Assembly (NCBI RefSeq): GCF_900101745.1
Contig: NZ_FNAD01000006.1
Span: 1-64,000 of the forward strand
DNA: 64,000 nt
Reading direction: 5' to 3'
DNA from: Glycomyces harbinensis
GTDB lineage: Bacteria > Actinomycetota > Actinomycetes > Mycobacteriales > Micromonosporaceae
Positions 49,823 through 64,000 of the stretch are shown here, piece by piece. The position numbers and the translations under genes are program-made. Within the stretch, counting starts at the first letter, position 1. Each line of letters begins with the position of its first letter. Below the pieces are notes generated by a model. That model saw only the letters and a list, made by a program, of their open reading frames with translations, searched no databases and had not been told where the DNA came from.

Positions 49823-50067
49823 GCGCCCGCGTCCCGCGCCGGCCGGACTGGACAGTGGACCGACGCGCCCCGTTGCGCCGGATGTCCGGTCCCGCAAGGT
49901 AAGGTCGACACCGCGCCGTTCGCGCGAGGACCCGACGACGCCGTGACCGCAGTTTCCATCATGGCGACGCTCGCGAGCCGCAATCCGGCTCAGGCCCCCC
50001 GAGCGGCGAGACCACACACTTCATCGACGGTGACGGACACCGGCGGTATTCGCGACAGGGGGACAGC

Positions 50068-50577
50068 GTGCCTGAGGAGACCTTGGCAGTGGAGTTCGAC
50101 AACGTGGGCCTCTGGGAGGTCGCGCTCCTCATCATCTCGGTCGCGATTTTCATCGCCTGCCTGTGGCTCTCCGCAGGGCTGATCCGGAAGGCCACCGGCA
50201 CGTTGAGCCGGGTCAACAGCGTGCTCGACAAGGTCGACCACGAGATCGGCCCGATCCTGCGCAACGCGAACACCACGCTCGACAACGTCAACGCCAGCCT
50301 CGTGCAGGTCGAGGGCGAACTGGAGAAGGTCTCCTCGATCACCGAGAACGCGGCGCACGTCTCCTCCAACGTCGCCAACGTCACGAGCCTGGTCGTCTCC
50401 GCGGTCGGCTCCCCGCTGGTCAAGGCCGCCGCGTTCGGGTTCGGCCTGCGCACCGCGCTGAAGAAGCGCAACCAGGGCGTCGAGGAGGACCAGGTGCGCC
50501 GCATGGTCGAGGCGTCCCGCCAGAGCAAGCGCGAGGCCAAGCGCACCGCGAAGGCCCGCAAGAGGGCCGACAAGTAG
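50068..50577 (+). CDS. DUF948 membrane protein
   Basis: 169 aa. One N-terminal TM helix (about 17-40, ALLIISVAIFIACLWLSAGL) is followed by a long amphipathic coiled coil with t-SNARE-like heptads (SRVNSVLDKVDHEIGPILRN; TTLDNVNASLVQVEGELEKV) and a Lys/Arg-rich C-terminal tail. This is the DUF948 pattern; in Actinomycetota the gene usually stands before alaS, as here. GTG 50068 has CAGGGGGACAG upstream. Function unknown. Confidence 0.9.
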   Translation: MPEETLAVEFDNVGLWEVALLIISVAIFIACLWLSAGLIRKATGTLSRVNSVLDKVDHEIGPILRNANTTLDNVNASLVQVEGELEKVSSITENAAHVSSNVANVTSLVVSAVGSPLVKAAAFGFGLRTALKKRNQGVEEDQVRRMVEASRQSKREAKRTAKARKRADK

Positions 50578-50652
50578 CCTGCGGCGATCGGCCGCACGTA
50601 AATCGACTGGCGCCGGTGCGCGGCATCGGCGAACATCGAATCAGGAGCTCCC

Positions 50653-50943
50653 GTGTTGAAACGGATGATCTGGGTAGGCATCGGCATCGCCGTGGGCGTG
50701 GTCGTGGTCCGCAAGCTCACGAAGGCCGCGGAGTCGGTCACTCCCGGCGGGGTCGCCGAGCGGGTGGGCGGCGCCGGTGCTGAAATGAGGGACTCGCTCA
50801 AAGCGTTCTGGGCGGACGTCTCTGAGGCCAAGCAGGCCAAGGAGGCCGAGCTGTTCGACGCGATCGAGCGCGGCGAGGACCTCACCCCGCTGCTCGCCGA
50901 AGACGAAGACGACGACCGGGCCCTGCCCGGCCGGCAGTACTAG
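50653..50943 (+). CDS. DUF6167-type small membrane protein
   Basis: 96 aa. An N-terminal hydrophobic helix (MIWVGIGIAVGVVVVRKL) is followed by an amphipathic, acidic C-terminus (DSLKAFWADVSEAKQAKEAE). The position between the DUF948 gene and alaS and the overall pattern match the DUF6167 family of Actinomycetota. GTG 50653 has CAGGAGC upstream. Unknown function. Confidence 0.8.
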   Translation: MLKRMIWVGIGIAVGVVVVRKLTKAAESVTPGGVAERVGGAGAEMRDSLKAFWADVSEAKQAKEAELFDAIERGEDLTPLLAEDEDDDRALPGRQY

Positions 50944-50962
50944 ACCTTGAAGGAGGTGCCCC

Positions 50963-53644
50963 ATGGAGACCGCTGAAATCCAACGCCGGTTTCTGAAGTT
51001 CTTCGAGTCCAACGGCCATACGGTGGTCCCCAGCGCACCGCTGCCCGCCTTCGAGGACCCGAACCTCTTGTTCGTGCCCGCGGGCATGGTCCCGTTCGTG
51101 CCCTACTTCCTGGGCCAGGCGACCCCGGACTGGAACCGCGCCACGTCGGTGCAGAAGTGCATCCGCACGCCCGACATCGACGAGGTCGGCAAGACCTCCC
51201 GCCACGGCACGTTCTTCCAGATGAACGGCAACTTCTCCTTCGGGGACTACTTCAAGGAGCAGGCGATCCGCTTCGCCTGGGACCTGACCACCGGCTCGGT
51301 CGAGTCGGGCGGCCTGGGCCTGGACGGCGACCGGATCTGGGCCACGGTCTACCTCGACGACGACGAGGCGATCGACATCTGGCACCGGCAGATCGGGCTG
51401 CCGCTCGACCGCATCGTGCGGCGCGGCCAGGCCGACAACATGTGGTCGATGGGCATTCCCGGCCCCTGCGGCCCCTGCTCGGAGCTGTACTACGACCGCG
51501 GCCCCGACTACGGACCCGAAGGCGGCCCGGAGGTCGACGAGGACCGCTACCTCGAGTTCTGGAACCTCGTGTTCATGCAGAACATCCGCGGCGGCGGCCC
51601 CGCCAAGGAGGGCTACGAGGTCACCGGCGACCTGCCGAAGAAGAACATCGACACCGGCATGGGCATGGAGCGCATGGCCGCGCTCCTCCAGGGCGTCGAC
51701 AACATGTACGAGACCGACCAGGTCCGCCCGATCATCGACAAGGCCTCGCAGCTGACGGGGAAGCGCTACGGCGTCTCGACCTCGCACACCGCGTCCGAGT
51801 CGCACCCGGACGACATCCGCTTCCGCGTGATCGGCGACCACGTGCGCTCCTCGCTGATGCTCATCGGCGACGGCGTCGTGCCCTCGAACGAAGGCCGCGG
51901 CTACGTCCTGCGCCGCCTCATGCGCCGCGCGATCCGCGCCGTGCGCCTGCTCGGCTACGACAAGCCCGCGATGCCCGAGCTGCTGCCGGTCGCGATGGAG
52001 CGCATGTCCACCGCCTACCCGGAGCTGCGCACCGACTTCGAGCGGATCTCCTCCTACGCCTACGGCGAGGAGGAGGCGTTCCTCCAGACGCTCAAGCACG
52101 GCACGACGATCCTCGACACCGCCGTCTCCGAGACCAAGTCCGAAGGCGGCAGGACCCTCTCCGGTTCCAAGGCGTTCGAGCTGCACGACACGTACGGCTT
52201 CCCGATCGACCTGACCCTGGAGATGGCCGAGGAGCAGGGGCTCTCGGTCGACCAGGAGGCGTTCCGGCAGCTCATGACCGAGCAGCGCCAGCGGGCGAAG
52301 GCCGACGCGGCCGCCCGCAAGACCGGGCACGCCGACCTGTCCGCGTACTGGCAGATCCTCCAGGAGCAGGGCCCGACCGACTGGAAGGCCTACGAGACCC
52401 TGGAGACCGAGTCCCGGGTGATCGGCCTGCTCAAGGACGGCCAGTCGATCCCGGTGGCCAAGTCCGGGGACATCGTGGAGGTCGTGCTCGACCGGACCCC
52501 GTTCTACGCCGAGTCCGGCGGCCAGCACGCCGACGCGGGCAAGCTCGTCGGCCCGAACCTCTTCGCCGAGGTCGTGGACGTGCAGCGCCCGGTCAAGAAG
52601 CTCGTGGTCCACAAGGTCCGCGTCCTCGAGGGCGACCTCGCCCTCGGCGACGCGGTCGAGGCCTCGGTCGACGGCGAGTGGCGCCTCGGCGCCCGCCAGG
52701 CCCACTCGGGCACCCACGTGGTGCACGCGGCCCTGCGCGAGGTGCTCGGCCCGACCGCGCTGCAGTCCGGCTCGTTCAACCGGCCCGGTTACCTGCGCCT
52801 GGACTTCTCGTGGCGCTCGAAGCTGTCCGACGAGACCCGCAGCGAGGTCGAGGAGGTCTCCAACAAGGCCGTCCGCGACGACCTGCCGGTCGCCGTCAAG
52901 TACATGACGCTGCCCGAGGCCAAGGACTTCGGCGCGGTCGCCCTGTTCGGGGAGACCTACGACGAGACCGTCCGCGTCGTCGAGATCGGCGGCCCCTGGT
53001 CGCGCGAGCTCTGCGGTGGCACGCACGTGTCGCACTCGGCCCAGATCGGCCCGCTCGTCCTCACCGGCGAGTCCTCGGTCGGCTCGGGCCAGCGCCGCGT
53101 CGAGGCCGCCACCGGCATGGAGGCCTACCGGTACCTCGCGCGCGAACGGGACCTCGTCTCGCAGATCGCCGAGGAGATCGGCGCCCAGCGCGGCGACGTC
53201 CTCGAGCGCGTCCGGGCGATCCTCCAGCGCTCCAAGGACGCCGAGCGGGAGCTCGCGACGCTCCAGGCGAAGGCCGTCTCCGGCCGCGCCGCGGAGTTCG
53301 CGGCCGCCGCGAAGCAGGTCGGGGCCGTCAAGGTCGCGGCCGTGCAGGCGCCCGAGGGCACCAAGGGCGGCGACGTGCGCAACCTCGCGACCCAGATCCG
53401 CGGGCACCTGCCCGAGGGCGAGCCGGGCGTCGCGGCGGTCGTCGCGACCGCCGGCGGCAAGGCCAGCATCGTCGTCGCGGCCAACAAGGCCGCGCAGGCC
53501 CAGCACGTCTCGGCCGCGCAGCTGGTCAAGGCCGCGCTGTCGGGCAAGGGCGGCGGCAACGACGAGATCGCCCAGGGCGGCGGCGTCCCCGCCGACCAGG
53601 CGCCGCAGCTGCTCGACGCGGTCGTCCGCGCCATCGCGGCCTAG
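50963..53644 (+). CDS. alaS: Alanyl-tRNA synthetase
   Basis: 893 aa. Class II catalytic domain ([25 protein letters not shown]-type region; [18 protein letters not shown]), tRNA-recognition domain, editing domain with metal site HSGTHVVH and [13 protein letters not shown], and the C-terminal oligomerisation/DHHA1-type domain. It clears Ser/Gly mischarging in its editing site. ATG 50963 is preceded by the best ribosome-binding site of the window, AAGGAGGTG. It heads the ruvX-mltG-aroE string. Confidence 0.97.
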
Positions 53645-54127
53645 ATGACGGAGACTTCGTCCGGCCCCGCCGCCGCTTCCGAGTGGCGGCGGGGCCGCCG
53701 TCTCGGCGTCGACCTCGGCAAGGCGCGCATCGGCGTCGCCGTGTGCGACCCCGACGGCCTCCTCGCCACTCCGGTCGCGACGGTCCGTCGCGACCTCAAA
53801 ACCGCTGGTGGGGACATTCCTTCCGATATTCGTGAAATCGCCGAAACGGCCCGGGAATACGATGTGGTCGAGATCGTTGTCGGCCTACCCGTTACTCTTT
53901 CGGGTGAGGAGGGGCCGGCAGCCGCCCACACCCGAGCGTGGGTGGAGCGTTTCGCCGACCACGTCTCACCCGTTCCGGTGACCCTGACCGACGAGCGCAT
54001 GACGACCGCCGTCGCGACCCGCAGACTCAACGAAGGCGGCGTGCGCGGCAAACGGAAGCGCTCCATCGTGGATCAGGCGGCGGCGGTGGAGATCCTCCAG
54101 CAATGGTTGGACCAGCGGCGGAGGTAA
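53645..54127 (+). CDS. ruvX: Holliday-junction resolvase-like protein RuvX (YqgF)
   Basis: 160 aa RNase H-fold nuclease, in bacteria linked to pre-16S rRNA processing. Motifs: LGVDLGKARIGVAVCDPDG with catalytic Asp, VEIVVGLPVTLSG, TLTDERMTT with catalytic Glu, and KRSIVDQAAAVEILQQWL with the last catalytic Asp. It starts immediately after the alaS stop (zero spacing), so it is co-translated. Confidence 0.95.
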   Translation: MTETSSGPAAASEWRRGRRLGVDLGKARIGVAVCDPDGLLATPVATVRRDLKTAGGDIPSDIREIAETAREYDVVEIVVGLPVTLSGEEGPAAAHTRAWVERFADHVSPVPVTLTDERMTTAVATRRLNEGGVRGKRKRSIVDQAAAVEILQQWLDQRRR

Positions 54128-54134
54128 GAACAGG

Positions 54135-55403
54135 ATGCTCGGCGACTTCAGGACCGAGGACGATCGCGACGCGTCGCCCCGGAGCCACCGCCGTAAGGAC
54201 TCGGGCAAGTCCTTGGTCGCCATGACCCTGGTCGTGGCCCTGTTCGGTGTCATCGGCGTCGGCGGCTGGTGGGCCTACAACAACGTCATCAAGGAGTACT
54301 TCGTCGCCGAGGACTTCTCCGGCGAGGGCAACGGCACCGAGGTGACGGTCATCGTCGAGGACGGCTGGCTCGTCTCCGACATCGCCGCCCACCTCGAAGA
54401 GGAGGGCGTGGTCGCCTCCGCGAAGGCCTTCCTGAACGCCTCCGAGGACGACGGCGACTCCGGGCAGAGCATCCAGCCGGGCACCTACAACATGCAGGGC
54501 GAGATGTCGGCCGCCGCGGCCCTGACGTTCCTCCTCGACGAGGCCAACCGCATGACCAACGCGGTCACCATCCCCGAGGGCTACCGCAAGTTCGAGGTCT
54601 TCCAGACCCTCTCCGAGCACACCGGCGTCCCGGTCGCGGACTTCGAGGCCGCCGCCGAGGACCCCGAAGCGCTCGGTGTCGACCCGATCTGGTTCGAGGG
54701 CTTCTCCGACCGCCAGATCAAGTCCGTCGAGGGCTTCCTGTTCCCCTCGACCTACGAGTTCGACGAGGAGTGGACCGCCGCCGACATGCTCTCGGCGATG
54801 ATCGACCGGTTCAACACCGAGATCGCGGAGATCGGCTTCCTCGAGGACCTCGCGAACATCCAGAACCCCGACCCCGACTTCGACCCCAGCGCCATGACCG
54901 AGCAGACGTTCTACCCGGAGACCAACGGCGAGTTCAAGATCTACCCGTGGATGGCGCTCCAGATCGCCTCCATCGTGCAGTCCGAGTCGGGCATTCCCAC
55001 CGACGACCCGAAGATCGCCCAGGTCATGTACAACAAGCTCTACCTCAACTGGATCGAGCACGAGCAGACCAACTGCAACTGCTTCGAGAGCGAGGCGATC
55101 TGGAACTACGGCCGCCTGCTCAACGGCGAGGAGGCGATCACCTCGGGCGAGAACGTCGACTGGTACGCGCTCATGCGCGACCCCGACAACCCGTGGTCGC
55201 CCAGCGCCCCCGAGCACGCCGGCTACCTCCCCAGCGCCATCTCCAACCCCGGCTCCGCCGCCCTCGAGGCCGCCGCCAACCCCGAGGCGGGGGACTGGCT
55301 CTTCTTCGTCACCGCCTACGAGGACGGCAGCGCCCTCTTCGCGCACGACTACGCGGACCATCAGGACAACATCGTCATCGCCGAGGAGAACGGCATCCAA
55401 TGA
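54135..55403 (+). CDS. mltG: Endolytic murein transglycosylase MltG
   Basis: 422 aa. A cytoplasmic, charged N-terminus precedes one TM helix (about 27-50), a LysM-like region (VTVIVEDGWLVSDIAAHLEE) and the YceG catalytic domain with EGFLFPSTYEF, the catalytic Glu in IASIVQSES, and LPSAISNPG (family usually TPI-type at this place). It cuts nascent glycan strands and ends peptidoglycan elongation. The ruvX-mltG-aroE order is common in Actinomycetota. It overlaps aroE by 4 bases. Confidence 0.93.
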   Translation: MLGDFRTEDDRDASPRSHRRKDSGKSLVAMTLVVALFGVIGVGGWWAYNNVIKEYFVAEDFSGEGNGTEVTVIVEDGWLVSDIAAHLEEEGVVASAKAFLNASEDDGDSGQSIQPGTYNMQGEMSAAAALTFLLDEANRMTNAVTIPEGYRKFEVFQTLSEHTGVPVADFEAAAEDPEALGVDPIWFEGFSDRQIKSVEGFLFPSTYEFDEEWTAADMLSAMIDRFNTEIAEIGFLEDLANIQNPDPDFDPSAMTEQTFYPETNGEFKIYPWMALQIASIVQSESGIPTDDPKIAQVMYNKLYLNWIEHEQTNCNCFESEAIWNYGRLLNGEEAITSGENVDWYALMRDPDNPWSPSAPEHAGYLPSAISNPGSAALEAAANPEAGDWLFFVTAYEDGSALFAHDYADHQDNIVIAEENGIQ

Positions 55404-56230
55404 CGCGCGCGGCCGTCCTCGGCAAACCCATCGAGCACTCGCTCTCGCCGGTCATCCACAACGCCGGCTACACCGCGGCCGGCCTGCGCGAATGGACCTA
55501 CACGCGGCACGAATGCGACGAGCCCGCGCTCGCCCGCTTCGTCGACTCGCTCGACGAGACCTGGGCCGGGCTCTCGCTCACCATGCCGCTCAAAGAGGTC
55601 GCCCTCGCCGTCGCCGACGAGGCCACGCCCGTCGCCGAGGCCATCGGCGCGGCGAACACGCTGGTCCTGCGGGGCGGGCGCCGCCTCGCGGACAACACCG
55701 ACGCGCCCGGGATCGTCGACGCGCTGGCCGAGATCGGCATGAAGGAGGCCGGCGAGGTCGCCGTCCTCGGCGCGGGCGGCTCGGCGCGCGCCGCGCTCGC
55801 CGCGGCGACGCAGCTGGGGGCCTCCTCGGTCACCGTATACGCCCGCCGCCGCGTCGCCGTCGCCGAACTCGAGCCGGTCGCATCCCGCCTCGGCCTGAGA
55901 CTCCGGACCGCCGGCTGGGACGAGGCCGGGGCCTGCGGCAGGGCCGACCTGGTCATCAGCACGGTGCCCAAGGGCGTCACCGACGACCTCCGCCCGATCT
56001 GGGGCGCCGAGACGGTCCTGTTCGACATCCTCTACGACCCCTGGCCGACCCCGCTCGCCGCGGCGGCCGAGCGCGAGGGCGTCCGCGTCCTCGACGGCCT
56101 GGCCCTGCTGCTCGCCCAGGCCGTGCGCCAGTGGACCCAGTTCACGGGGGTCGACCGGGCACCCGTCGCCGCGATGCGCGAGGCCCTGTACGCCGCGGTC
56201 CCCTCCCGTAGCGCCTCCGAGGAACAATAG
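55400..56230 (+). CDS. aroE: Shikimate dehydrogenase
   Basis: 276 aa; NADPH-dependent reduction of dehydroshikimate. VLGKPIEHSLSPVIHNAGY at the N-terminus binds shikimate, LTMPLKEVALA carries the catalytic Lys, NTLV and DNTDAPGIVDAL complete the site, and GAGGSARAALAA is the nucleotide-binding loop. ATG 55400 overlaps the mltG stop (ATGA). Other aro genes usually follow in this lineage; here the HTTM locus follows instead. Confidence 0.95.
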   Translation: MTRAAVLGKPIEHSLSPVIHNAGYTAAGLREWTYTRHECDEPALARFVDSLDETWAGLSLTMPLKEVALAVADEATPVAEAIGAANTLVLRGGRRLADNTDAPGIVDALAEIGMKEAGEVAVLGAGGSARAALAAATQLGASSVTVYARRRVAVAELEPVASRLGLRLRTAGWDEAGACGRADLVISTVPKGVTDDLRPIWGAETVLFDILYDPWPTPLAAAAEREGVRVLDGLALLLAQAVRQWTQFTGVDRAPVAAMREALYAAVPSRSASEEQ

Positions 56231-56234
56231 GCAT

Positions 56235-56633
56235 ATGAGCCACGCCCACACCTTCCTCTACGACGGCGACTGCGCCTTCTGCACCAAGTCGGCCCAGTTC
56301 CTGGAGAAGCACGTCCGCACCACCGCGAAGGTCATGCCCTGGCAGTGGGCCGACCTCGACGCCCTCGGCGTGAGCCAGGCCCAGGCCGAGGAGGCCGTCC
56401 TGTGGATCGAGGTCAACTTCCTCAGGGCCGGTCCCGACGCGATCAGTGTCCTGCTGCGCCGCGCCCAGTGGTACTGGAGGCCCGTCGGCGGGCTCCTGTC
56501 GCTCAAGCTCGTCTCCAAGGCCGCCTGGCCGGTGTACCGGCTCGTCGCCCGCAACCGCCACCGCCTCCCCGGCGGCACGGCCGCCTGCTCGCTCCCGCAG
56601 GCCGAGCGGGACCGACTCCGATACGGGGGATGA
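56235..56633 (+). CDS. DCC1-type thiol-disulfide oxidoreductase (DUF393)
   Basis: 132 aa. The name-giving start YDGDCAFCTKSAQFLEKHV contains the CxxC redox motif in a thioredoxin-like fold; the middle (VLWIEVNFLRAGPDAISVLL) and the end (YRLVARNRHRLPGG) fit the DUF393 family. There is no signal peptide. It starts 4 bases after aroE. DUF393 proteins are often found beside or fused to HTTM (vitamin K carboxylase-like) proteins, as here, suggesting a redox role for that membrane partner. Confidence 0.92.
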   Translation: MSHAHTFLYDGDCAFCTKSAQFLEKHVRTTAKVMPWQWADLDALGVSQAQAEEAVLWIEVNFLRAGPDAISVLLRRAQWYWRPVGGLLSLKLVSKAAWPVYRLVARNRHRLPGGTAACSLPQAERDRLRYGG

Positions 56634-56678
56634 GAGTCCGTTTCGTGAGGGTACGGCCCTGCATGACATACTCGTGCG

Positions 56679-57143
56679 GTGCTGAAGGACGCTGCTGAAC
56701 CCCCTCTGACGCGCCGAGGAAAGATCGTGCGGATCGCCGCGACGCTCGCGATGACGATCGCCCTCATGGCGACCTCGCTGTGGGGCGTCGACGACCTCTT
56801 CCCGTTCGCGCCGTTCAAGATGTACTCCCACGCGCACGACCCCGACGGCTGGGCGAACAGCACCAGCCTCGTCCTGACGAACGCCGAGGGCGAGAGCTTC
56901 GCCATCGGCGACAACGACACGGGCTTCCGCCGCGCCGAACTCGAAGGCCAGCTGAGCCGGTTCCGCGAGGACCCGTCGCTGCTGGCCCTCGTCGCCGAGG
57001 CCTACGAGGACGCCCACCCCGGCTCCCCCGAGATCGTCGCCGCCGAAGTCCACATCAGGCGCTACGAGCTCAAGGACGGCGAGCGGACCGGCGCCGAGAC
57101 CAACGAGATCGCGGTCTCCTGGAGCGAAGGGGCGGACTCATGA
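56679..57143 (+). CDS. Anchored small protein, HTTM partner, copy 1
   Basis: 154 aa. One N-terminal TM helix (about 15-36) is directly followed by the motif LFPFAPFKMYSHAHDPDGW and a soluble extracytoplasmic domain (DTGFRRAELEGQLSRFREDP; EIVAAEVHIRRYELKDG). It is about half identical by eye to the copy at 58119. GTG 56679 has no ribosome-binding site; CATACT lies 6 bases upstream, so a leaderless mRNA is likely. It overlaps the HTTM gene by 4 bases. The role is unknown; conservation of the PFAPFKMYS segment suggests it docks on the HTTM protein. Confidence 0.85.
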   Translation: MLKDAAEPPLTRRGKIVRIAATLAMTIALMATSLWGVDDLFPFAPFKMYSHAHDPDGWANSTSLVLTNAEGESFAIGDNDTGFRRAELEGQLSRFREDPSLLALVAEAYEDAHPGSPEIVAAEVHIRRYELKDGERTGAETNEIAVSWSEGADS

Positions 57144-58063
57144 GCGTCTTCACCCGCTACGCGAACGGCTTCTTCTTCACGCCCGTGGCCCTCGGCCGCG
57201 TCGCCGCCATGCGCTTCCTCGCCGGACTTTTCGTCTGGATCGAATGGTGGGCCTACAAGCCGTTCATCATCCAGCACCGCTTCCTGCCCGAGGACCTGTA
57301 CCAGCCCCTGTTCATCGGCCGGATCCTGCCGATCCCGGCCCCGAACTACTGGATCGTCACCGGCACCCTCGTCGTCATGCTCGCCGCCGCCCTGCCGGTG
57401 ATGTTCGGATACCGCCCGCGCCTGTTCGGCTGGATCCTCTTCATCGCCTACTTCGAGTGGATGCTCATCTACAACTCGTACGGGAAGGTCGACCACGCGA
57501 GCTTCGGCTTCATGGTGCTCCTGCTCGTGCTCTGCATGATGCCCGAGGCCAGGTGGGGCGACCGCGAGCACCTGTCCCCGCGGGTCGGGTGGGGCTTCAA
57601 CCTCGTCCAGATCGCCGTGGTCTGCACGTACTTCCTCTCGACCTGGTCCAAGTTCCGCTACGGCGGCCTCGAATGGGCCAACTCCGGGGTCTTCACCTGG
57701 GCGATCATCCGCCGCGGCACGCCCTTCTCGGACTGGATGCTCGACTTCCCGCTGCTGCTCAACGCGGCCCAGTGGGGCATGATCGCCTTCGAGCTGCTGA
57801 CACCGCTGGTGCTCTTCGTCTACCCCTGGAAGCGGATCCAGTACTCGATCGTCGCGTTCTTCTACGCCTTCCACGTCGCGGTCTTCGCCGCACTGACCAT
57901 CAGCTTCCTGCCGCACCTGTTCGCCATGGCCTGCTTCCTGCCGCTGGAGCGGATCGACCCCAAGGACCTCGCCCGCAGGGCCCGGGCGAAGCTCAAGGGC
58001 GGCAAGGACACGCCGCGGCGCGGCGCACCCGAGCCCGCGGCCGAAATGGAGACCACCGGCTGA
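57140..58063 (+). CDS. HTTM membrane protein (vitamin K carboxylase-like), copy 1
   Basis: 307 aa with about seven to eight TM helices and the HTTM fold: PVALGRVAAMRFLAGLFVWI, AYFEWMLIYNSYGKVDHASF, KFRYGGLEWANSGVFTWAI and FELLTPLVLFVYPWKR. HTTM is the membrane domain of vitamin K-dependent gamma-carboxylase and of many uncharacterised bacterial proteins. The protein lacks the large extramembrane C-terminal part of the animal enzyme; its tail is short and basic/Pro-rich. ATG 57140 overlaps the anchor gene (ATGA). Enzymatic activity is not shown by sequence. Confidence 0.88.
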   Translation: MSVFTRYANGFFFTPVALGRVAAMRFLAGLFVWIEWWAYKPFIIQHRFLPEDLYQPLFIGRILPIPAPNYWIVTGTLVVMLAAALPVMFGYRPRLFGWILFIAYFEWMLIYNSYGKVDHASFGFMVLLLVLCMMPEARWGDREHLSPRVGWGFNLVQIAVVCTYFLSTWSKFRYGGLEWANSGVFTWAIIRRGTPFSDWMLDFPLLLNAAQWGMIAFELLTPLVLFVYPWKRIQYSIVAFFYAFHVAVFAALTISFLPHLFAMACFLPLERIDPKDLARRARAKLKGGKDTPRRGAPEPAAEMETTG

Positions 58064-58118
58064 GCCCCGCCGTCGTCCGCCGCCCCGGCCGGTGGCGGGC
58101 ACGTGAAATACTCTTGCC

Positions 58119-58589
58119 GTGCCAGTCGACGAACCCCGCCTCTCCACGGTCCGCCCTGTCGGGAAGGCCGTGCGCATCGCCGTCACCGCGGTCGTGCTCG
58201 CCCTCGTCACCGCCACCACCTTCTGGGGCGCCGACGACTTCTTCCCCTTCGCGCCCTTCAAGATGTACTCGTTCTCGAAGGAGCTCGACGGCTGGGCCGG
58301 CTCGACCCGCGTCGAAGCGGTCAACGAGGAGGGCGAGCGGTTCAGCCTCAGGGAGTCCACCACGGGCTTCCGCCGCGCCGAACTCGAAGGCCAGAAGAGC
58401 CGCTTCATCGAGGACCCCTCGCTCCTGGAGTACATCGCCGAGGCCTACGAGAACACCAACCCCGACAAGCCCGAGATCGTCACCGTCGAGATCATCGAGC
58501 GCCGGTACGAGCTCGAGGACGGCTACCAGACCGGCGAAGTGATCGAGGTCGTCGAGGCTTCCTGGACCCGCGAAGGAACCGACGCGTGA
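58119..58589 (+). CDS. Anchored small protein, HTTM partner, copy 2
   Basis: 156 aa paralogue of 56679-57143 with the same layout: a TM helix (about 16-38), FFPFAPFKMYSFSKELDGW, TTGFRRAELEGQKSRFIEDP and EIVTVEIIERRYELEDGYQT. GTG 58119 is preceded by AATACTCTTGCC; the first copy has the similar CATACTCGTGCG, so both the gene and its promoter were duplicated. It overlaps the second HTTM gene by 4 bases (GTGA). Confidence 0.85.
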   Translation: MPVDEPRLSTVRPVGKAVRIAVTAVVLALVTATTFWGADDFFPFAPFKMYSFSKELDGWAGSTRVEAVNEEGERFSLRESTTGFRRAELEGQKSRFIEDPSLLEYIAEAYENTNPDKPEIVTVEIIERRYELEDGYQTGEVIEVVEASWTREGTDA

Positions 58590-59554
58590 CGCAGCTTCGC
58601 GGTTTTCAGAAGATCAGCGCCCGCAAGGCCACCGGCTGGTTCTTCCAGCCCGTCGCGCTCGGCCGCGTCGCCGCCATGCGCTTCCTCGCCGGCGCCTTCA
58701 TCTGGGTCGACTGGTGGTGGTACATGCCGTGGATCCTGGGGCACCGCCACGTCCCCGGGGAGCTGTACCAGCCGCTGTTCATCGCCCGCGTCCTGCCGGT
58801 CTTCCCCGTCCCCGGCTACTGGATCGTCGTCGGCACGCTGCTGGTCATGCTCGCGGCCTCCATCCCGATGATGCTCGGCAAGGCCCCGCGGCTCTTCGGC
58901 TGGATCGTCGCGGTCGCCTACTTCGAGTGGATGATCATCGCGATGTCCTACGGGAAGGTCGACCACGGCAAGTTCGGGTTCCTCCTCCTGCTGTTCCTGC
59001 TGCCGACCATGCCGAAGGCCAGGTGGGGCGACCGCCGCAACCTCTCCGAGCACGTCGGCTGGGGCTTCAACCTCGTCCAGATCGGCGTGGTCTGCACCTA
59101 CTTCTTCGCCGCCTGGGCCAAGTTCCGCTACGGCGGCTTCGAATGGGTCAACTCGGCGACCATGACCTGGGCGATCATCCGCCGCGGCACCGAGTTCTCG
59201 AACTGGCTGCTGGACTTCCCGTGGATGCTGCGCGCCTCCCAATGGGGCATGGTCACCTTCGAACTGCTCAGTCCCATCGTCATGTTCGTCGCGGCCAAAC
59301 GGTTCAAGTACGGCATCGTGGCGTTCTTCTACCTGTTCCACCTGACGGTGTTCCTCGCCGTCGGGATCAGCTTCCTGCCCCATATGGTCGCCATGGCCTG
59401 CTTCCTGCCGCTGGAACGAATCCGGCCACGTGACCTGATTCGCAATCTGCCCCGCCTGCCCGGCCTGATCCGGCGAAAGCTCCAGGCCCGCAAGGCCGTA
59501 CCGGCCCAAGGACCCCCCGCCGAACCCGCCCGGGAGGCCGAACCGGCGTCCTGA
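58586..59554 (+). CDS. HTTM membrane protein (vitamin K carboxylase-like), copy 2
   Basis: 322 aa paralogue of the first HTTM protein: PVALGRVAAMRFLAGAFIWV, AYFEWMIIAMSYGKVDHGKF, KFRYGGFEWVNSATMTWAII and FELLSPIVMFVAAKRFKYG. The Lys and His in YGKVDH and the block RRGTxFSxWxLDFP are kept in both copies. GTG 58586 was chosen for its overlap with the anchor gene and the GAAGGA site upstream. It is followed by a weak terminator. Confidence 0.88.
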   Translation: MTQLRGFQKISARKATGWFFQPVALGRVAAMRFLAGAFIWVDWWWYMPWILGHRHVPGELYQPLFIARVLPVFPVPGYWIVVGTLLVMLAASIPMMLGKAPRLFGWIVAVAYFEWMIIAMSYGKVDHGKFGFLLLLFLLPTMPKARWGDRRNLSEHVGWGFNLVQIGVVCTYFFAAWAKFRYGGFEWVNSATMTWAIIRRGTEFSNWLLDFPWMLRASQWGMVTFELLSPIVMFVAAKRFKYGIVAFFYLFHLTVFLAVGISFLPHMVAMACFLPLERIRPRDLIRNLPRLPGLIRRKLQARKAVPAQGPPAEPAREAEPAS

Positions 59555-59565
59555 ACCGCGGAAAA

Positions 59566-59592
59566 CGAGTGGCCCGCTCCCACTCGATTTTC
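59566..59592 (+). terminator. Weak terminator after HTTM copy 2
   Basis: CGAGTGG/CCACTCG stem (7 bp, 7-base loop) followed by ATTTTCC. Confidence 0.5.
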
Positions 59593-59593
59593 C

Positions 59594-59605
59594 TACGGTT
59601 GAAGG
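59594..59605 (+). promoter_or_regulatory. Leaderless-type promoter of the ABC-2 operon
   Basis: TACGGT followed by 6 bases (TGAAGG) and ATG 59606. The GAAGG is too close to be a ribosome-binding site, so transcription probably starts at the start codon. Confidence 0.45.
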
Positions 59606-60604
59606 ATGCCGATTCTCGAAGCCCGATCCCTCACCAAGACCTTCCGCAGGCCTGACAAGGCCTCGGGGTTCAAGGGCGCCGTCAAACACCTCGCGCAGCG
59701 CAGATACAAGAACTACACCGCGGTCGACGGGATCGACCTCTCGGTCGACGCGGGCGAGTCGGTGGCCTACGTCGGGCCCAACGGCGCCGGCAAGTCCACC
59801 ACCGTCAAGCTCCTCACCGGCATCCTCAAGCCCTCCGAGGGCACCGTACGGGTGATGGGCCGCGACCCGCACACCGAGCGCATCGCCAACGCCCACGACA
59901 TCGGCGTGCTCTTCGGCCAGCGCACCCAGCTGTGGTGGGACCTGCCGGTGGAGGAGTCCCTGAAGCTCCTCAAGCACATGTACGGCGTCTCCGAAGCCGA
60001 CTACAAGCGGCGCATCGCGAAGTTCGACGAACTCCTCGACCTCGGCGAGTTCATGCCGGCGCTGGCCCGCACGCTCTCCCTCGGCCAGCGGATGCGGGCC
60101 GACCTGGCCTGCGCGCTCATCCACGACCCCAAGATGGTCTACCTCGACGAGCCGACCATCGGACTGGACATCTCCGTCAAGGACCGCCTCCGGGCGTTCC
60201 TGCGCGAGCTCGTCGACGACGGCACCACGCTGCTGCTGACCAGCCACGACCTCGCCGACATCGAGGAGGTCTGCGAGCGGATCGTGGTGATCGACAAGGG
60301 CGCCATCGCCTACGACGGCCCGATCACCGAACTCAAGGCCCACTACATCACGACCAAGGCCGTGCACCTCATCCTCGACGGCCCGGCCGACCTCCCCGAG
60401 CTGAGCGAGAAGTTCCCCGACTACGCCTGGGCCGCCGGCGACGCCCCCTCGGAGGTCAAGGTGACCTACGAGTCGGCGCGCTTCACCACCGCCGAAGTCC
60501 TCGCCGACGTCACCGGCCACCTGCGCCCCAGGGACCTCTCGCTCTCCGAGCCGAGCATCGAGGACGTCATCCGCCGCCTCTACGCGGGGGAGCTCACCAA
60601 GTGA
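59606..60604 (+). CDS. ABC-2 type transporter ATPase
   Basis: 332 aa ATPase: Walker A YVGPNGAGKSTTV, Q-loop FGQRTQLWWDLP, signature LSLGQRMRADLA, Walker B VYLDEPTIGLD, switch LTSHDLADIE. The FGQRTQLWWDLP and LSLGQ forms are characteristic of the uncharacterised COG4586-type exporters that work with two dissimilar permeases (COG4587 and COG3694). The C-terminal ~90 residues form a regulatory domain. It is the only ATPase for four following permease genes. Confidence 0.93.
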   Translation: MPILEARSLTKTFRRPDKASGFKGAVKHLAQRRYKNYTAVDGIDLSVDAGESVAYVGPNGAGKSTTVKLLTGILKPSEGTVRVMGRDPHTERIANAHDIGVLFGQRTQLWWDLPVEESLKLLKHMYGVSEADYKRRIAKFDELLDLGEFMPALARTLSLGQRMRADLACALIHDPKMVYLDEPTIGLDISVKDRLRAFLRELVDDGTTLLLTSHDLADIEEVCERIVVIDKGAIAYDGPITELKAHYITTKAVHLILDGPADLPELSEKFPDYAWAAGDAPSEVKVTYESARFTTAEVLADVTGHLRPRDLSLSEPSIEDVIRRLYAGELTK

Positions 60605-60635
60605 CCTCCCGCGTACCCCCGATCGGGGTGACCAC

Positions 60636-61433
60636 TTGACGCAGGGCTTCGCGGTGGACCGCGCCTTCGCGACCGTCGCGTTCAAACGCCGCCTGGCGTA
60701 CAAGATCCAGTGGATGGTCGCCCTGGTCCTCGGCGGCGGCGCCATGCTCGTCTCGATGGCGATGTGGCGCAACCTGCTCGCCGACGGCGCGCTGTCGGGC
60801 TACGACTGGGAGTCGATGCGCGCCTACATCATCATCGGGTTCATCACCGCGACCGTGGTCTTCGGCGCCGCGGACTGGCACATCGCCGACCGCATCCTCG
60901 ACGGCCACATCGCGATCGACCTGACCAAGCCCGTCGACTTCCAGCGGGCCCGCGCCGCCGAGTACATCGGCTCCATGATCTCCACCGTCCCCACCGTGAT
61001 CGTCGGCGTCGTCGGCGCCTGGCTGCTCTTCGACCCGCCCGGCCCGGCCTCGGCCCTCGCCGGGGTCCTCACCGCCGTCAGCTTCGTCCTGATCTTCCCG
61101 CTCGCCTTCGGCATCACCTACCTCACGGTCCTGGTGTGCTTCTGGACCAAGCGGTACATCGGCGTCATGTGGCTGCGCGAGGCCCTGCTCGGCTTCTTCT
61201 CCGGGATGATGATCCCCCTGGCGTTCATGCCCTCCTGGCTCCAGGCCGTCGCCTGGGCCCTGCCGTTCCCGCACTTCACGACCACGCCCGCCGCCATCTA
61301 CCTCGGCCGCGTCGACACCGCCGGAGCGCTGGGCCTCCTCGCGGCCGAGGCGGCCTGGGCCCTCGGGCTGTGGTTCGGCGGCCGGCTCGTGTTCCGCCAG
61401 GCGGTCAAGAAAGTGACGGTGCACGGTGGCTGA
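60636..61433 (+). CDS. ABC-2 permease A, copy 1
   Basis: 265 aa with six TM helices, COG4587-like. Conserved with copy 2 are GYDWESMRAYIIIGFITAT, DLTKPVDFQRARAAEYIG, FFSGMMIPLAFMPSWLQ and the C-terminal KKVTVHGG. A TTG start at 60636 follows GGGGTG; no good ATG/GTG lies nearby in frame. It is 31 bases after the ATPase and overlaps permease B by 8 bases. Confidence 0.88.
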   Translation: MTQGFAVDRAFATVAFKRRLAYKIQWMVALVLGGGAMLVSMAMWRNLLADGALSGYDWESMRAYIIIGFITATVVFGAADWHIADRILDGHIAIDLTKPVDFQRARAAEYIGSMISTVPTVIVGVVGAWLLFDPPGPASALAGVLTAVSFVLIFPLAFGITYLTVLVCFWTKRYIGVMWLREALLGFFSGMMIPLAFMPSWLQAVAWALPFPHFTTTPAAIYLGRVDTAGALGLLAAEAAWALGLWFGGRLVFRQAVKKVTVHGG

Positions 61434-62247
61434 CACCTCGACGCCCGGCAGGTCCCTGACCGCGCGGCACGTGGGCGGCGTCTACGGGCGCTCGCTCGTC
61501 GCCCAGATCCGCGCCATCACCGAGTACCCGGCCGACTTCTGGGTCATGGCCTCCGCGGGCGTGATGTGGAACGTCCTCCAGCTCGCGTTCCTGACGGTCC
61601 TGTTCGCCGCGGTCCCCGACGTCGCCGGGTGGGACTACCACGAGATGGTCATGCTCGCCGGGCTCCTGTCCGTGGCCGCCGGCTCGACCGCCCTGTTGTG
61701 CGACGGCGTGTGGAGCACCGGCGGAATGATCCTCAAGGGCGAGATCGACTACCGGATCACCCGTCCCGCGCCGGTGGTCGTCCAGGTCGCGACCACCCAC
61801 ATCGGGATGCAGGGCTTCGGCGAGGTCGGCTTCGGGCTCGTCATGGTCGTCTTCGGCTGGATCGGCGCCGGCCTGGGCCTCGCCGCCGTCCCCGTGGGCA
61901 TCCTCGGCATCCTCTGCGCCATCGTCATCGAGGGCGCGCTCATCACCGTGTTCTGCGCGGTGAACTTCTGGATCAAGGGCCCCATGTCGCCCTTCGCGTT
62001 CATGCTCATCGACCTCCAGAACAGCGCGATGAACCTCCCGCTGGGGCTCTTCCCGGCCGGCGTGCGGATCGTGACCATGTTCGTCGTCCCGGTCGCCTTC
62101 GTCAACTTCGTGCCCGTCGCCGTCCTCACCGGGCACCTGTCGGCCTGGTGGCTCATCGGCACCCCGCTCGCCGCCGTCGCGTCCGTCCTCGCGGCGGTCG
62201 GCATATACCGGCTCGGCCTGCGCTCCTACGACTCCTCGGGACACTGA
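61426..62247 (+). CDS. ABC-2 permease B, copy 1
   Basis: 273 aa with six TM helices, COG3694-like. Shared with copy 2 are HVGGVYGRSLVAQIRAITEY, GWDYHEMVMLAGLL, GEIDYRITRPAPVVVQVA and LIDLQNSAMNLPLGLFPAGV. GTG 61426 overlaps the preceding gene by 8 bases. It pairs with permease A to make one heterodimeric channel. Confidence 0.88.
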   Translation: MADTSTPGRSLTARHVGGVYGRSLVAQIRAITEYPADFWVMASAGVMWNVLQLAFLTVLFAAVPDVAGWDYHEMVMLAGLLSVAAGSTALLCDGVWSTGGMILKGEIDYRITRPAPVVVQVATTHIGMQGFGEVGFGLVMVVFGWIGAGLGLAAVPVGILGILCAIVIEGALITVFCAVNFWIKGPMSPFAFMLIDLQNSAMNLPLGLFPAGVRIVTMFVVPVAFVNFVPVAVLTGHLSAWWLIGTPLAAVASVLAAVGIYRLGLRSYDSSGH

Positions 62248-62249
62248 CC

Positions 62250-63038
62250 TTGGCAAGCATCGACGTCGCGCTCGCGACCATCTCGTTCAAGCGCAAGATC
62301 GCCTACAAGACGACCTGGCTCTTCTCGGTCCTGTTCGGCGGCTGGTCGCTCCTGGCCGGCCTCGCCGTCTGGAGCAACCTCATCGGCGACGGCGAGCTGG
62401 GCGGCTACGACTGGCAGTCCATGAAGGCCTACCTCATCATCGGCTTCCTGACCTCGACCCTCGCCTGGGCCGGCGCGGACTGGGAGATGGCCAACCGCAT
62501 CCTCGACGGGCTCGTCGCGGTCGACCTGACCAAGCCGATCGACTTCCAGCGCGCCCGCGCCGCCGAGTACATCGGCGGCATGGCCGCCTCGGTGCCCGCC
62601 GCGGTCCTCGGCACGGTCGCGGCGGTCCTGATCTTCCGGCCCGCGCCGCCCGCCTCGCCGCTCGCCGCGGCCCTGACCGTCCTCAGCCTGCTGTTCATCT
62701 TCCCGCTGGCGTTCGGCATCAACTACCTGTCGGTCCTCGCCTGCTTCGTGACGCAGCGCTACCTGGGCATCCAGTGGGCCAGGGACTGCTTCCTGGCGTT
62801 CTTCTCCGGGATGATGGTCCCGATCGCCCTCATGCCCGTGTGGCTCCAGGGCGTCGCGTGGAGCCTCCCGTTCGTCCACTTCACCACCACGCCCGCGTCG
62901 ATCTACCTCGGCCGCGTCGACGCCCTCGGCGGGCTCGGCCTCATCGCCGCCGAAGCGGTCTGGGCCCTCGGCCTGTGGCTCGGCGGCCGCCTCATCTGGA
63001 ACCAGCTCGTGAAGAAGGTGACCGTCCATGGCGGCTGA
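62250..63038 (+). CDS. ABC-2 permease A, copy 2
   Basis: 262 aa paralogue of 60636-61433: GYDWQSMKAYLIIGFLTSTL, DLTKPIDFQRARAAEYIGG, FFSGMMVPIALMPVWLQGV and the same C-terminal KKVTVHGG. A TTG start at 62250 (LASIDVALATISFKRK) lies two bases after the previous stop. It overlaps the next gene by 11 bases. Confidence 0.88.
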   Translation: MASIDVALATISFKRKIAYKTTWLFSVLFGGWSLLAGLAVWSNLIGDGELGGYDWQSMKAYLIIGFLTSTLAWAGADWEMANRILDGLVAVDLTKPIDFQRARAAEYIGGMAASVPAAVLGTVAAVLIFRPAPPASPLAAALTVLSLLFIFPLAFGINYLSVLACFVTQRYLGIQWARDCFLAFFSGMMVPIALMPVWLQGVAWSLPFVHFTTTPASIYLGRVDALGGLGLIAAEAVWALGLWLGGRLIWNQLVKKVTVHGG

Positions 63039-63834
63039 CACCGCGCGGATGCGCCACGCCGGCGCCGTCTACCGCCGCTCGATCGGCGCCTACCTGCGCT
63101 CGATGGCCGAGTACCCGGCCGACTTCTGGATCATGTCGATCGCCGGGACGCTCTGGCAGGTCGTCCTGTTCGCGTTCCTGAGCATCCTGTTCGCCAACGT
63201 CAACGCCATCGACGGCTGGGGCTACCACGAGATGCTCGTCCTCGCGGGCTTCCTCGCGACCTCCTGGTCCTCCACGGCCCTGTTCTGGGACGGCATCTGG
63301 GACACCGGCAAGATGATCGTCGAAGGCGACATGGACTACCGGCTCACCAGGCCCGCGCCCGTCCTCGTCCAGGTCGCGTCGAAGCACCTCGGCATGCAGG
63401 TCTTCGGCGAGATGACCCTCGGCCTGGTGATGATCGCGATCGGCTGGACCGGCGCGGGCCTGGGCCTCGCCGCGATCCCGGTCGGCCTCTTCCTGCTCGT
63501 GTGCGCCTCGATCATCCAGGCGGCGCTGCTGACCATCGCGAACGCCGCGAACTTCTGGATGAAGGGCCGCACCCCCGTCATCGCGTTCATGCTGACCGAA
63601 CTCCAGAACGAGGCCATGCGCTTCCCGCTGACGATCTTCCCGATCGGGGTCCGCCTGGTCCTCACCTTCGGCCTGCCGCTGGCGTTCGCGAGCTTCGTCC
63701 CCGCCCAGATCCTCACCGGCCGGCTCGACGCGTGGTGGCTCATCGGCCCGCCGCTGGCCGCCGCCGCGTGCGCACTGGCCGCCGTGTGGGTCTTCCGGGC
63801 GGGCGTGCGCGCCTACGATTCCGCCGGCAACTGA
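63028..63834 (+). CDS. ABC-2 permease B, copy 2
   Basis: 268 aa paralogue of 61426-62247: HAGAVYRRSIGAYLRSMAEY, GWGYHEMLVLAGFL, GDMDYRLTRPAPVLVQVA and LTELQNEAMRFPLTIFPIGV. ATG 63028 overlaps the preceding gene by 11 bases. Last gene of the five-gene exporter operon. Confidence 0.88.
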   Translation: MAADTARMRHAGAVYRRSIGAYLRSMAEYPADFWIMSIAGTLWQVVLFAFLSILFANVNAIDGWGYHEMLVLAGFLATSWSSTALFWDGIWDTGKMIVEGDMDYRLTRPAPVLVQVASKHLGMQVFGEMTLGLVMIAIGWTGAGLGLAAIPVGLFLLVCASIIQAALLTIANAANFWMKGRTPVIAFMLTELQNEAMRFPLTIFPIGVRLVLTFGLPLAFASFVPAQILTGRLDAWWLIGPPLAAAACALAAVWVFRAGVRAYDSAGN

Positions 63835-63862
63835 AGTGGCGTGGAACACCGCGAAAAAAGAC

Positions 63863-63892
63863 TTGCGCCCCCCGGGGAGGCTTCGCTAAAGT
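63863..63892 (+). promoter_or_regulatory. Promoter of the last gene
   Basis: TTGCGC, an 18-base spacer and TAAAGT, about 55 bases upstream of ATG 63949. A run of A (63854-63859) precedes the -35 element. Confidence 0.5.
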
Positions 63893-63948
63893 CATCGCTG
63901 TTGCCCGGAGCATTCCACCCGGGACGCTTGCGAATGGAGGTGTTACTG

Positions 63949-64000
63949 ATGGCTGTCACTGTTCTCGACCTTGCCTCGAAACTCAGTTCACCTTCCGCAG
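63949..64000 (+). CDS. Start of a gene cut by the window end
   Basis: Only 17 codons are visible: MAVTVLDLASKLSSPSA. ATG 63949 has a strong ribosome-binding site GGAGG 8 bases upstream and its own promoter. The hydrophobic xLDLxxKL-type start followed by Ser/Pro/Ala faintly recalls leader peptides of some actinobacterial ribosomal peptide precursors, but the fragment is too short to assign. Confidence 0.6.
   Translation, partial: MAVTVLDLASKLSSPSA

Follow-up and report, generated by a model that had tools for sequence, protein, structure and literature searches.

The vitamin K-dependent gamma-glutamyl carboxylases, represented by human GGCX and by full-length bacterial relatives (VKGC), contain an HTTM membrane part. 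According to PMC12589487, K218 of GGCX serves as the base, H160, W223 and F286 are among the residues that bind the naphthoquinone, and the glutamate is held by N159 and H160; the linker sits within the membrane and contributes M401 to the lining of the quinone pocket. A glutamyl carboxylase homologue of Leptospira interrogans is presumed in PMC4555120 to have been acquired by transfer. HTTM proteins also occur with separate partners, as in the Bacillus subtilis-type SdpA–SdpB system (PF17418 with PF05090), whose two proteins are required for SdpC processing according to PMC6818787, and in linaridin crdG/crdE, where an HTTM protein and an alpha/beta hydrolase are assumed in PMC9927463 to act in peptide maturation. 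Here, we analyse a 64,000-nucleotide stretch of Glycomyces harbinensis DNA (the window), in which positions 56235–59554 carry a DCC1-like gene and two tandem copies of a gene pair, each encoding a small protein with one transmembrane helix, which we call the anchor, and an HTTM membrane protein.

All five genes lie on the plus strand. Anchor 1 (56679–57143, GTG start) comprises an N-terminal transmembrane helix, assigned by analogy with the anchor 2 model, a DDLFPFAPFKMYS linker and a soluble domain, and is followed by HTTM 1 (57140–58063, ATG start, 307 residues), a GGCX-like transmembrane core; anchor 2 (58119–58589, GTG start), whose structure was predicted, is followed by HTTM 2 (58586–59554, GTG start, 322 residues). 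A preliminary description of the locus, in which a CxxC oxidoreductase was followed by two coupled pairs, was correct in this respect, since a PF04134 member precedes two anchor–HTTM pairs; its observations were confirmed, and its interpretation was partly supported. From sequence and predicted structure, each pair would be best explained as a two-polypeptide, or split, relative of vitamin K-dependent gamma-glutamyl carboxylase, and we put the probability of this explanation, taken in full, at about 0.47. The pair resembles GGCX and VKGC in its predicted HTTM fold, in the invariant Lys, His, Trp and Phe of the hydroquinone pocket, and in that its two polypeptides add up to an HTTM core, one transmembrane helix, a linker and an outer domain. 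Unlike them, it is made of two genes with the C-terminal part encoded first, is only weakly similar to them in the sequence of that C-terminal half, and has no known gamma-carboxyglutamate substrate and no link to VKOR.

Predicted fold and quinone-pocket residues of the HTTM proteins

No Pfam or NCBIfam model, PF05090 at its curated cut-off included, matched the window HTTM proteins (P0003 and P0005), and their membership of the HTTM family rests on relatives, profile comparison and fold. In what follows, L-numbers denote fetched loci, G-numbers genomes and A-numbers alignments or profiles. PF05090 was matched by three of the 12 aligned relatives in A1 (best E 1.1e-8), and L049 scored 35.5 bits against a cut-off of 27.7. 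In profile–profile comparison, the HTTM family profile A4 matched the HTTM part of bacterial VKGC with E 2.3e-9; a sequence search of the PDB with A1 and A4 returned no matches. The AlphaFold2 model of the HTTM protein had a predicted local distance difference test score (pLDDT) of 86.5, and the first 16 matches in a PDB fold search with this model were all GGCX, at a probability of 1.00 (E 1.5e-4 to 5.2e-2, template modelling scores 0.35–0.59), the 17th match having a probability of 0.08. The HTTM proteins are accordingly modelled with the transmembrane fold of GGCX, and the relationship to vitamin K-dependent carboxylase asserted in the preliminary description is borne out by predicted fold, profile and the retention of quinone-pocket residues.

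These residues were traced from GGCX through one bacterial VKGC, which aligned to GGCX with E 3.6e-34, to the HTTM family, the GGCX numbers being derived from chain offsets. In HTTM 2, K179 corresponds to K218, H127 to H160, W187 to W223 and F251 to F286. These four pocket positions made up the test (F294, F299, V210 and M401 lay outside it) and are invariant in all 111 full rows of the alignment, the 112th row being a fragment, while rows from other genera are 34–49% identical to HTTM 2. GGCX N159 corresponds to D126, which is Asp in 108 rows and Asn in three. Other HTTM residues, for example R27, R32, R199 and R200, are also invariant. The Lys is kept in the 17 A6 rows read on the right strand, and the GGCX-like His is missing in the SdpB-type row L112 and in L089.

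Conservation of the anchor–HTTM pair

The anchor and HTTM genes form a conserved unit. With HTTM 2 as the query, matches were found in 21 of the 41 genomes searched, its own genome counted, and all 20 loci retrieved from other genomes had an anchor immediately upstream in the same orientation, a count that includes L050 and L051, apparently one stretch. Conversely, the anchor query matched 11 of 396 actinobacterial genomes, with an HTTM gene directly downstream of every one of the 14 anchors found by the anchor alone (13 loci outside the window genome). A scan of named genomes, from which the best 80 of 343 matched stretches gave 78 distinct loci, took in 13 loci from Glycomyces, which repeat genomes of the 20-locus count, and others mostly from Micromonosporaceae; the anchor adjoins HTTM in 77 of these 78 loci. 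Co-conservation of the two genes was one of two points on which the preliminary description let its proposal stand or fall, and it holds at 77/78 loci and 14/14 anchors. Among the Micromonosporaceae and Glycomyces loci examined, the pair occurs often.

The genes are also coupled at the nucleotide level, as the anchor stop overlaps the HTTM start, with the HTTM frame open in the overlapping frame, in 87 of 88 anchors of the 78 named loci, the exception being in L149. Given this overlap and the joint conservation of the genes, anchor and HTTM are probably made in similar amounts. Among open reading frames (ORFs) of at least 110 residues at 13 query loci, none was observed to accompany the pair as a third gene except within syntenic blocks: the ORFs recurring across lineages are the anchor, HTTM and, partly, DCC1, and the other recurring ORFs, not all of them annotated, lie mostly in a block common to Micromonosporaceae-type loci. 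A full-text literature search gave no description of an HTTM–anchor pair, within a coverage that excludes most subscription-journal papers and all bioRxiv preprints.

Some individual loci deserve mention for other reasons. One and the same stretch, at matching contig coordinates, appears in L050 and L051, whose genomes are assigned to different families, possibly through shared contamination. At L070 (6810–7654), the HTTM match falls in two pieces in different frames, as in a pseudogene or an assembly error. In two Micromonosporaceae loci, L127 (11733–13367) and L173 (8211–10340), a radical SAM gene with an intein-like match lies near the pair, and L127 also has DUF6758 and bPH_2 genes nearby.

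The anchor as a candidate C-terminal half of the carboxylase

Neither HTTM protein of the window extends beyond the HTTM core, and the C-terminal ninth transmembrane helix, linker and lumenal domain are not in the same polypeptide. Six bacterial VKGC frames of 430–582 residues end in a transmembrane helix, a linker of the R-F-x-W-x-M type and a domain of similar order, the secondary structure of these end pieces being our own reading. The VKGC end piece (A8) matches GGCX 365–504 with E 4.4e-13 and places the linker on GGCX Y395–M402 in the derived numbering. The HTTM proteins stop short of this part, and the anchor has one transmembrane helix, a Met-bearing linker and an outer domain. In the anchor 2 model (pLDDT 87.8), a single transmembrane helix (13–36) leads through a less confident linker with FPF.PF.MYS to an outer domain of strands at 58–69 and 74–77, helices between 79 and 113, and strands at 120–133 and 136–150. 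Four Lys or Arg against two Asp or Glu ahead of residue 20 suggest that the C-terminus lies outside. P43 and A87 are conserved in 110/110 rows and M49 in 109/110.

The sequence link to the carboxylase comes from a profile, A11, built from relatives in other families (L098, L199, L200, L216, L217, L219 and L220) together with five rows of A5, the close anchor family. A11 matched the VKGC end piece end to end, with E 0.014 in local and 0.008 in global comparison, and none of 150 decoys, made by shuffling columns after the first 28, scored as high. The relationship between A5 and the L098-type partners is clear (E 8.8e-7), and HTTM lies just downstream of these partners in eight of nine loci, none being found in L218; two false matches (L221 and L228) were left out of this count. 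The widened anchor profile A10 matched 20 of 396 genomes, including one false match in G326 (L221), whose frame we take to encode a RibBA-type protein; L228, a false second match in G061, is presumably of RecO type.

The distribution of fused and split forms points in the same direction. PF05090 matched at 53 places in 36 of 198 genomes, and among the 30 that came as loci, the end piece is fused in eight (a count that includes the fragment L093), a split partner is present in eight, neither is found in 14 and both in none. In two of the 14, L094 (556–1122, minus strand) and L108 (2086–2541, plus strand), the HTTM protein is a single chain whose hydrophobic segment at the C-terminal end leads into SQSWGMFAP or TFAMFSN. 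Both have a transmembrane helix in cis together with a [WF]-x-M-F-[AS] motif. Against A11, the tail of L108 gave E 0.0018 over 35 columns and that of L094 only E 0.033; a C-terminal transmembrane helix with this motif in cis is possibly a general HTTM feature.

Several results weigh against the split-carboxylase explanation. A11 was the fourth of four anchor profiles compared with the VKGC end piece, and none of the three others, which are narrower, gave a significant value: E was 0.16 for A5, a score reached by 13 of 150 decoys (one of 60 under different settings), 0.26 for A9 (0.53 global) and 0.21 for A10. The linker Met is one residue apart between the A5 and A11 alignments, and in the bacterial VKGC frames themselves it is present in four of six, with Val in the other two. 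No counterpart of GGCX Y395 or R436 was traced in the pair. A Foldseek search of the PDB with the anchor gave nothing at E <= 0.001, GGCX not being among the best 50 of 444 rows, and the PDB sequence search gave only two matches (E 0.49 and 0.64). Twelve of the 16 classified fused or split loci, or the same genes, had been used in profile building, which leaves L085 and L093 (fused) and L105 and L109 (split) as independent. At L155 (Phytohabitans flavus), HTTM occurs without a full anchor, and no more than a short and weak match to the beginning of the anchor is left. No substrate gene was found conserved beside the pair among the ORFs screened. Finally, VKOR, which recycles the epoxide in animals, shows no association with the pair, being present in 19 of 31 pair-bearing and 11 of 20 pair-free genomes (51 in total); pair-bearing status was taken from the HTTM 2 and anchor queries, and the pair-free class rests on one HTTM query, so that distant pairs may be missed in it.

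Weighed together, these comparisons are moderate evidence for the anchor as the C-terminal half of VKGC, and they make it somewhat more likely than not that the anchor provides in trans the last transmembrane helix, linker and outer domain of GGCX that HTTM lacks. The preliminary description cast the anchor as a substrate or docking subunit; a docking role is plausible, in that the profile evidence and the fused and split loci would fit the anchor as a docking or catalytic subunit.

Proposed mechanism and implications

By analogy with GGCX, we consider the chances about even that the pair carries out menaquinol-driven chemistry. Menaquinol would bind in HTTM and be deprotonated by K179, and the deprotonated menaquinol would react with O2 to give a strong base, as in GGCX. 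An exported substrate, held by the outer domain of the anchor, would then lose a C–H proton to form a carbanion, to which CO2 or another group may add, so that the outcome could be carboxylation, epimerisation or another C–H reaction. Conservation is the observation behind this scheme, and every chemical step is carried over from GGCX. Given that no substrate gene was found beside the pair, the substrate is likely to be encoded elsewhere, to be the anchor itself, or not to be a protein at all, such as a lipid.

A more far-reaching and clearly more tentative proposal is that Actinobacteria may possess a two-subunit carboxylase-type enzyme in which HTTM contributes the menaquinol site and base, and a one-transmembrane subunit the linker and substrate domain, and which would use respiratory menaquinol to form carbanions on exported substrates. 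If true, the single-chain carboxylase of animals would be one fused form in a family in which split forms are common. Should the split explanation be right, the chemistry of vitamin K-dependent carboxylase could be modelled with a small bacterial system of two genes, amenable to expression and mutagenesis; the substrate-binding and quinone halves of the carboxylase would be separable, and Micromonospora, Actinoplanes and Glycomyces would be places to seek gamma-carboxyglutamate or a related modification.

Alternative explanations

That no substrate gene was seen beside the pair among the ORFs screened fits one alternative, namely that the pair acts on a lipid or other small membrane substrate, selected by the outer domain of the anchor, rather than on a protein. 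We regard this as rather unlikely: the pair is indeed kept among differing neighbours across lineages, as such a role would allow, but nothing here points to a particular lipid, and all biochemically known GGCX-type chemistry acts, to our knowledge, on protein glutamate.

Peptide maturation of the SdpAB kind, in which HTTM and a small one-transmembrane partner would process or modify a secreted peptide in the way that the SDP toxin is handled by SdpB and SdpA, appears less likely still. The gene order is similar, for at L112 the HTTM gene directly follows that of SdpA, which is likewise small and, by eye, begins with a hydrophobic N-terminal segment, and the SdpB-type protein is an HTTM protein (PF05090, 2.6e-8) that matches A4 with E 1.4e-4. 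The partners, however, are unrelated by profile: the comparison of SdpA, represented by one sequence, with the anchor profile gave E 0.72 and 0.55, which ruled out SdpA as an anchor relative. The anchors had no match to the SdpA family (TIGR04034/PF17418), their best matches to any family (E 0.0088 and 0.033) being unrelated and chance-like, and no SdpA was found in the window's own genome. No SdpC-like or other third gene was seen with the pair among the ORFs of at least 110 residues, smaller ORFs being unscreened and no SdpC model having been searched. The GGCX-like His, kept in 111/111 rows of the HTTM family, is missing from the one SdpB-type protein examined. The linaridin crdG/crdE proteins likewise join HTTM to a partner, but of another type and within a cluster for a ribosomally synthesised and post-translationally modified peptide (PMC9927463).

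A quinone-linked thiol redox module, in which the DCC1-like protein would exchange electrons with HTTM and menaquinone while the anchor serves as docking subunit, takes up the redox partnership of the preliminary description, for which the evidence is weak; we consider it quite improbable. The gene at 56235–56633 (plus strand, 132 residues) encodes a member of the DCC1-like family of thiol-disulfide oxidoreductase-type proteins (PF04134, E 2.9e-15, 57.9 bits against a cut-off of 27.8), whose CxxC cysteines C13 and C16, together with C118, are invariant in nine aligned homologues. It is a frequent neighbour, present in the fetched flanks of 69 of the 78 named loci, in Glycomyces and other genera, and also beside the distant relative pair in L200. 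Its position varies: it is upstream on the same strand in all 13 Glycomyces loci, and in the other 65 it is downstream on the opposite strand in 52, downstream on the same strand in three, upstream on the same strand in one and not found in nine. By presence, on the other hand, there is no association, with DCC1 in 21 of 31 pair-bearing versus 12 of 20 pair-free genomes; it is absent from nine of ten distant pair-bearing genomes and present in seven of seven pair-free Glycomyces. The anchor has no conserved Cys column (11 of 110 rows contain any Cys) and the best HTTM Cys column reaches 82 of 112 rows, none being invariant, which speaks against thiol exchange with DCC1, a protein that by eye has neither signal nor transmembrane segment. 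DCC1 is a recurrent but dispensable neighbour and not an obligate part of the pair. At L089 (2434–2862), a DCC1-like gene directly follows the HTTM gene, and no anchor-type partner was found there.

Finally, a non-catalytic membrane scaffold that keeps the GGCX fold for stability only is very unlikely, because the equivalents of the GGCX base and quinone contacts are kept in 111/111 rows even though rows from other genera have diverged to the identities given above.

Duplication and promoter-like elements

The two pairs in the window are true duplicates. Anchor 2 is 56% identical to anchor 1 (79 of 141 residues), HTTM 2 is 66% identical to HTTM 1 (198 of 301 residues), and the DNA of the two pairs matches at 963 of 1217 aligned bases. 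The duplicated gene order, overlaps and upstream sequences of the preliminary description were all recovered: the anchor stops overlap the HTTM starts as ATGA in pair 1 and GTGA in pair 2, and the pattern MATACTNNNNNNRTG, built from these two copies themselves, has two matches in the window, one ahead of each anchor start, against a mean of 0.11 by chance (two were reached in one of 100 shuffles).

Each anchor is preceded by a promoter-like element, CATACT, six nucleotides and the GTG start at 56667–56681 for pair 1 and AATACT, six nucleotides and the GTG start at 58107–58121 for pair 2, both on the plus strand. The arrangement [CA]ATACT, six bases and a start codon is in register in 26 of 26 printed Glycomyces anchor copies, the start codon having been picked among candidates and the L125 copy lying outside the count. 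From its sequence and spacing, we infer that [CA]ATACT is the -10 element of a leaderless message, in which case each pair would have its own transcript start; a standard -35/-10 scan found nothing.

In trees of 12 Glycomyces species, copy 1 and copy 2 separate for both anchor and HTTM. Both copies are supported groups in the anchor tree, and in the HTTM tree, where the bootstrap had not settled, copy 2 appears as a fork without resolution. The best explanation is that the pair was duplicated within Glycomyces and that both copies were kept, each with its own promoter-like element. In the single-pair Glycomyces G010 (L046), HTTM groups with copy 1 and the anchor with copy 2, a split placement that one simple duplication does not suffice to explain. 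G109, which belongs to a different family, has its own tandem pair.

Neighbouring genes

Upstream of the DCC1–pair locus lie genes that, from their translations, we take to be alaS, ruvX, mltG and aroE homologues. A search of 50000–64000 with Rfam at the gathering threshold found no RNA families. A defence system was ruled out, PADLOC on seven proteins giving only E 0.026 and 0.015, and no sign of mobile spread was found with one query each, the L139 anchor against plasmids and HTTM 2 against viral_contigs.

Downstream lie an ABC-2 ATPase gene and four permease genes. The preliminary description had suggested that this exporter may be part of the same system, which was not upheld. There was no ABC-2 match in six non-Glycomyces loci (five distinct, some on short contigs), and in pair-free Glycomyces the ABC-2 ATPase comes immediately after DCC1, clearly so in five of seven loci, the two unclear ones having only an ATPase remnant (L197) or ending at a contig edge (L196). 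The exporter was ruled out as a component on these grounds, and its proximity looks like local synteny. As DCC1 adjoins ABC-2 without the pair, gain or loss of the pair is possible, and its two neighbours are independent of it. The ABC-2 permeases at 60636–63834 themselves form two duplicated pairs (161/260 and 149/260 residues identical), and several other Glycomyces, for example at L033, L035, L036 and L038, have three permease pairs at the equivalent place.

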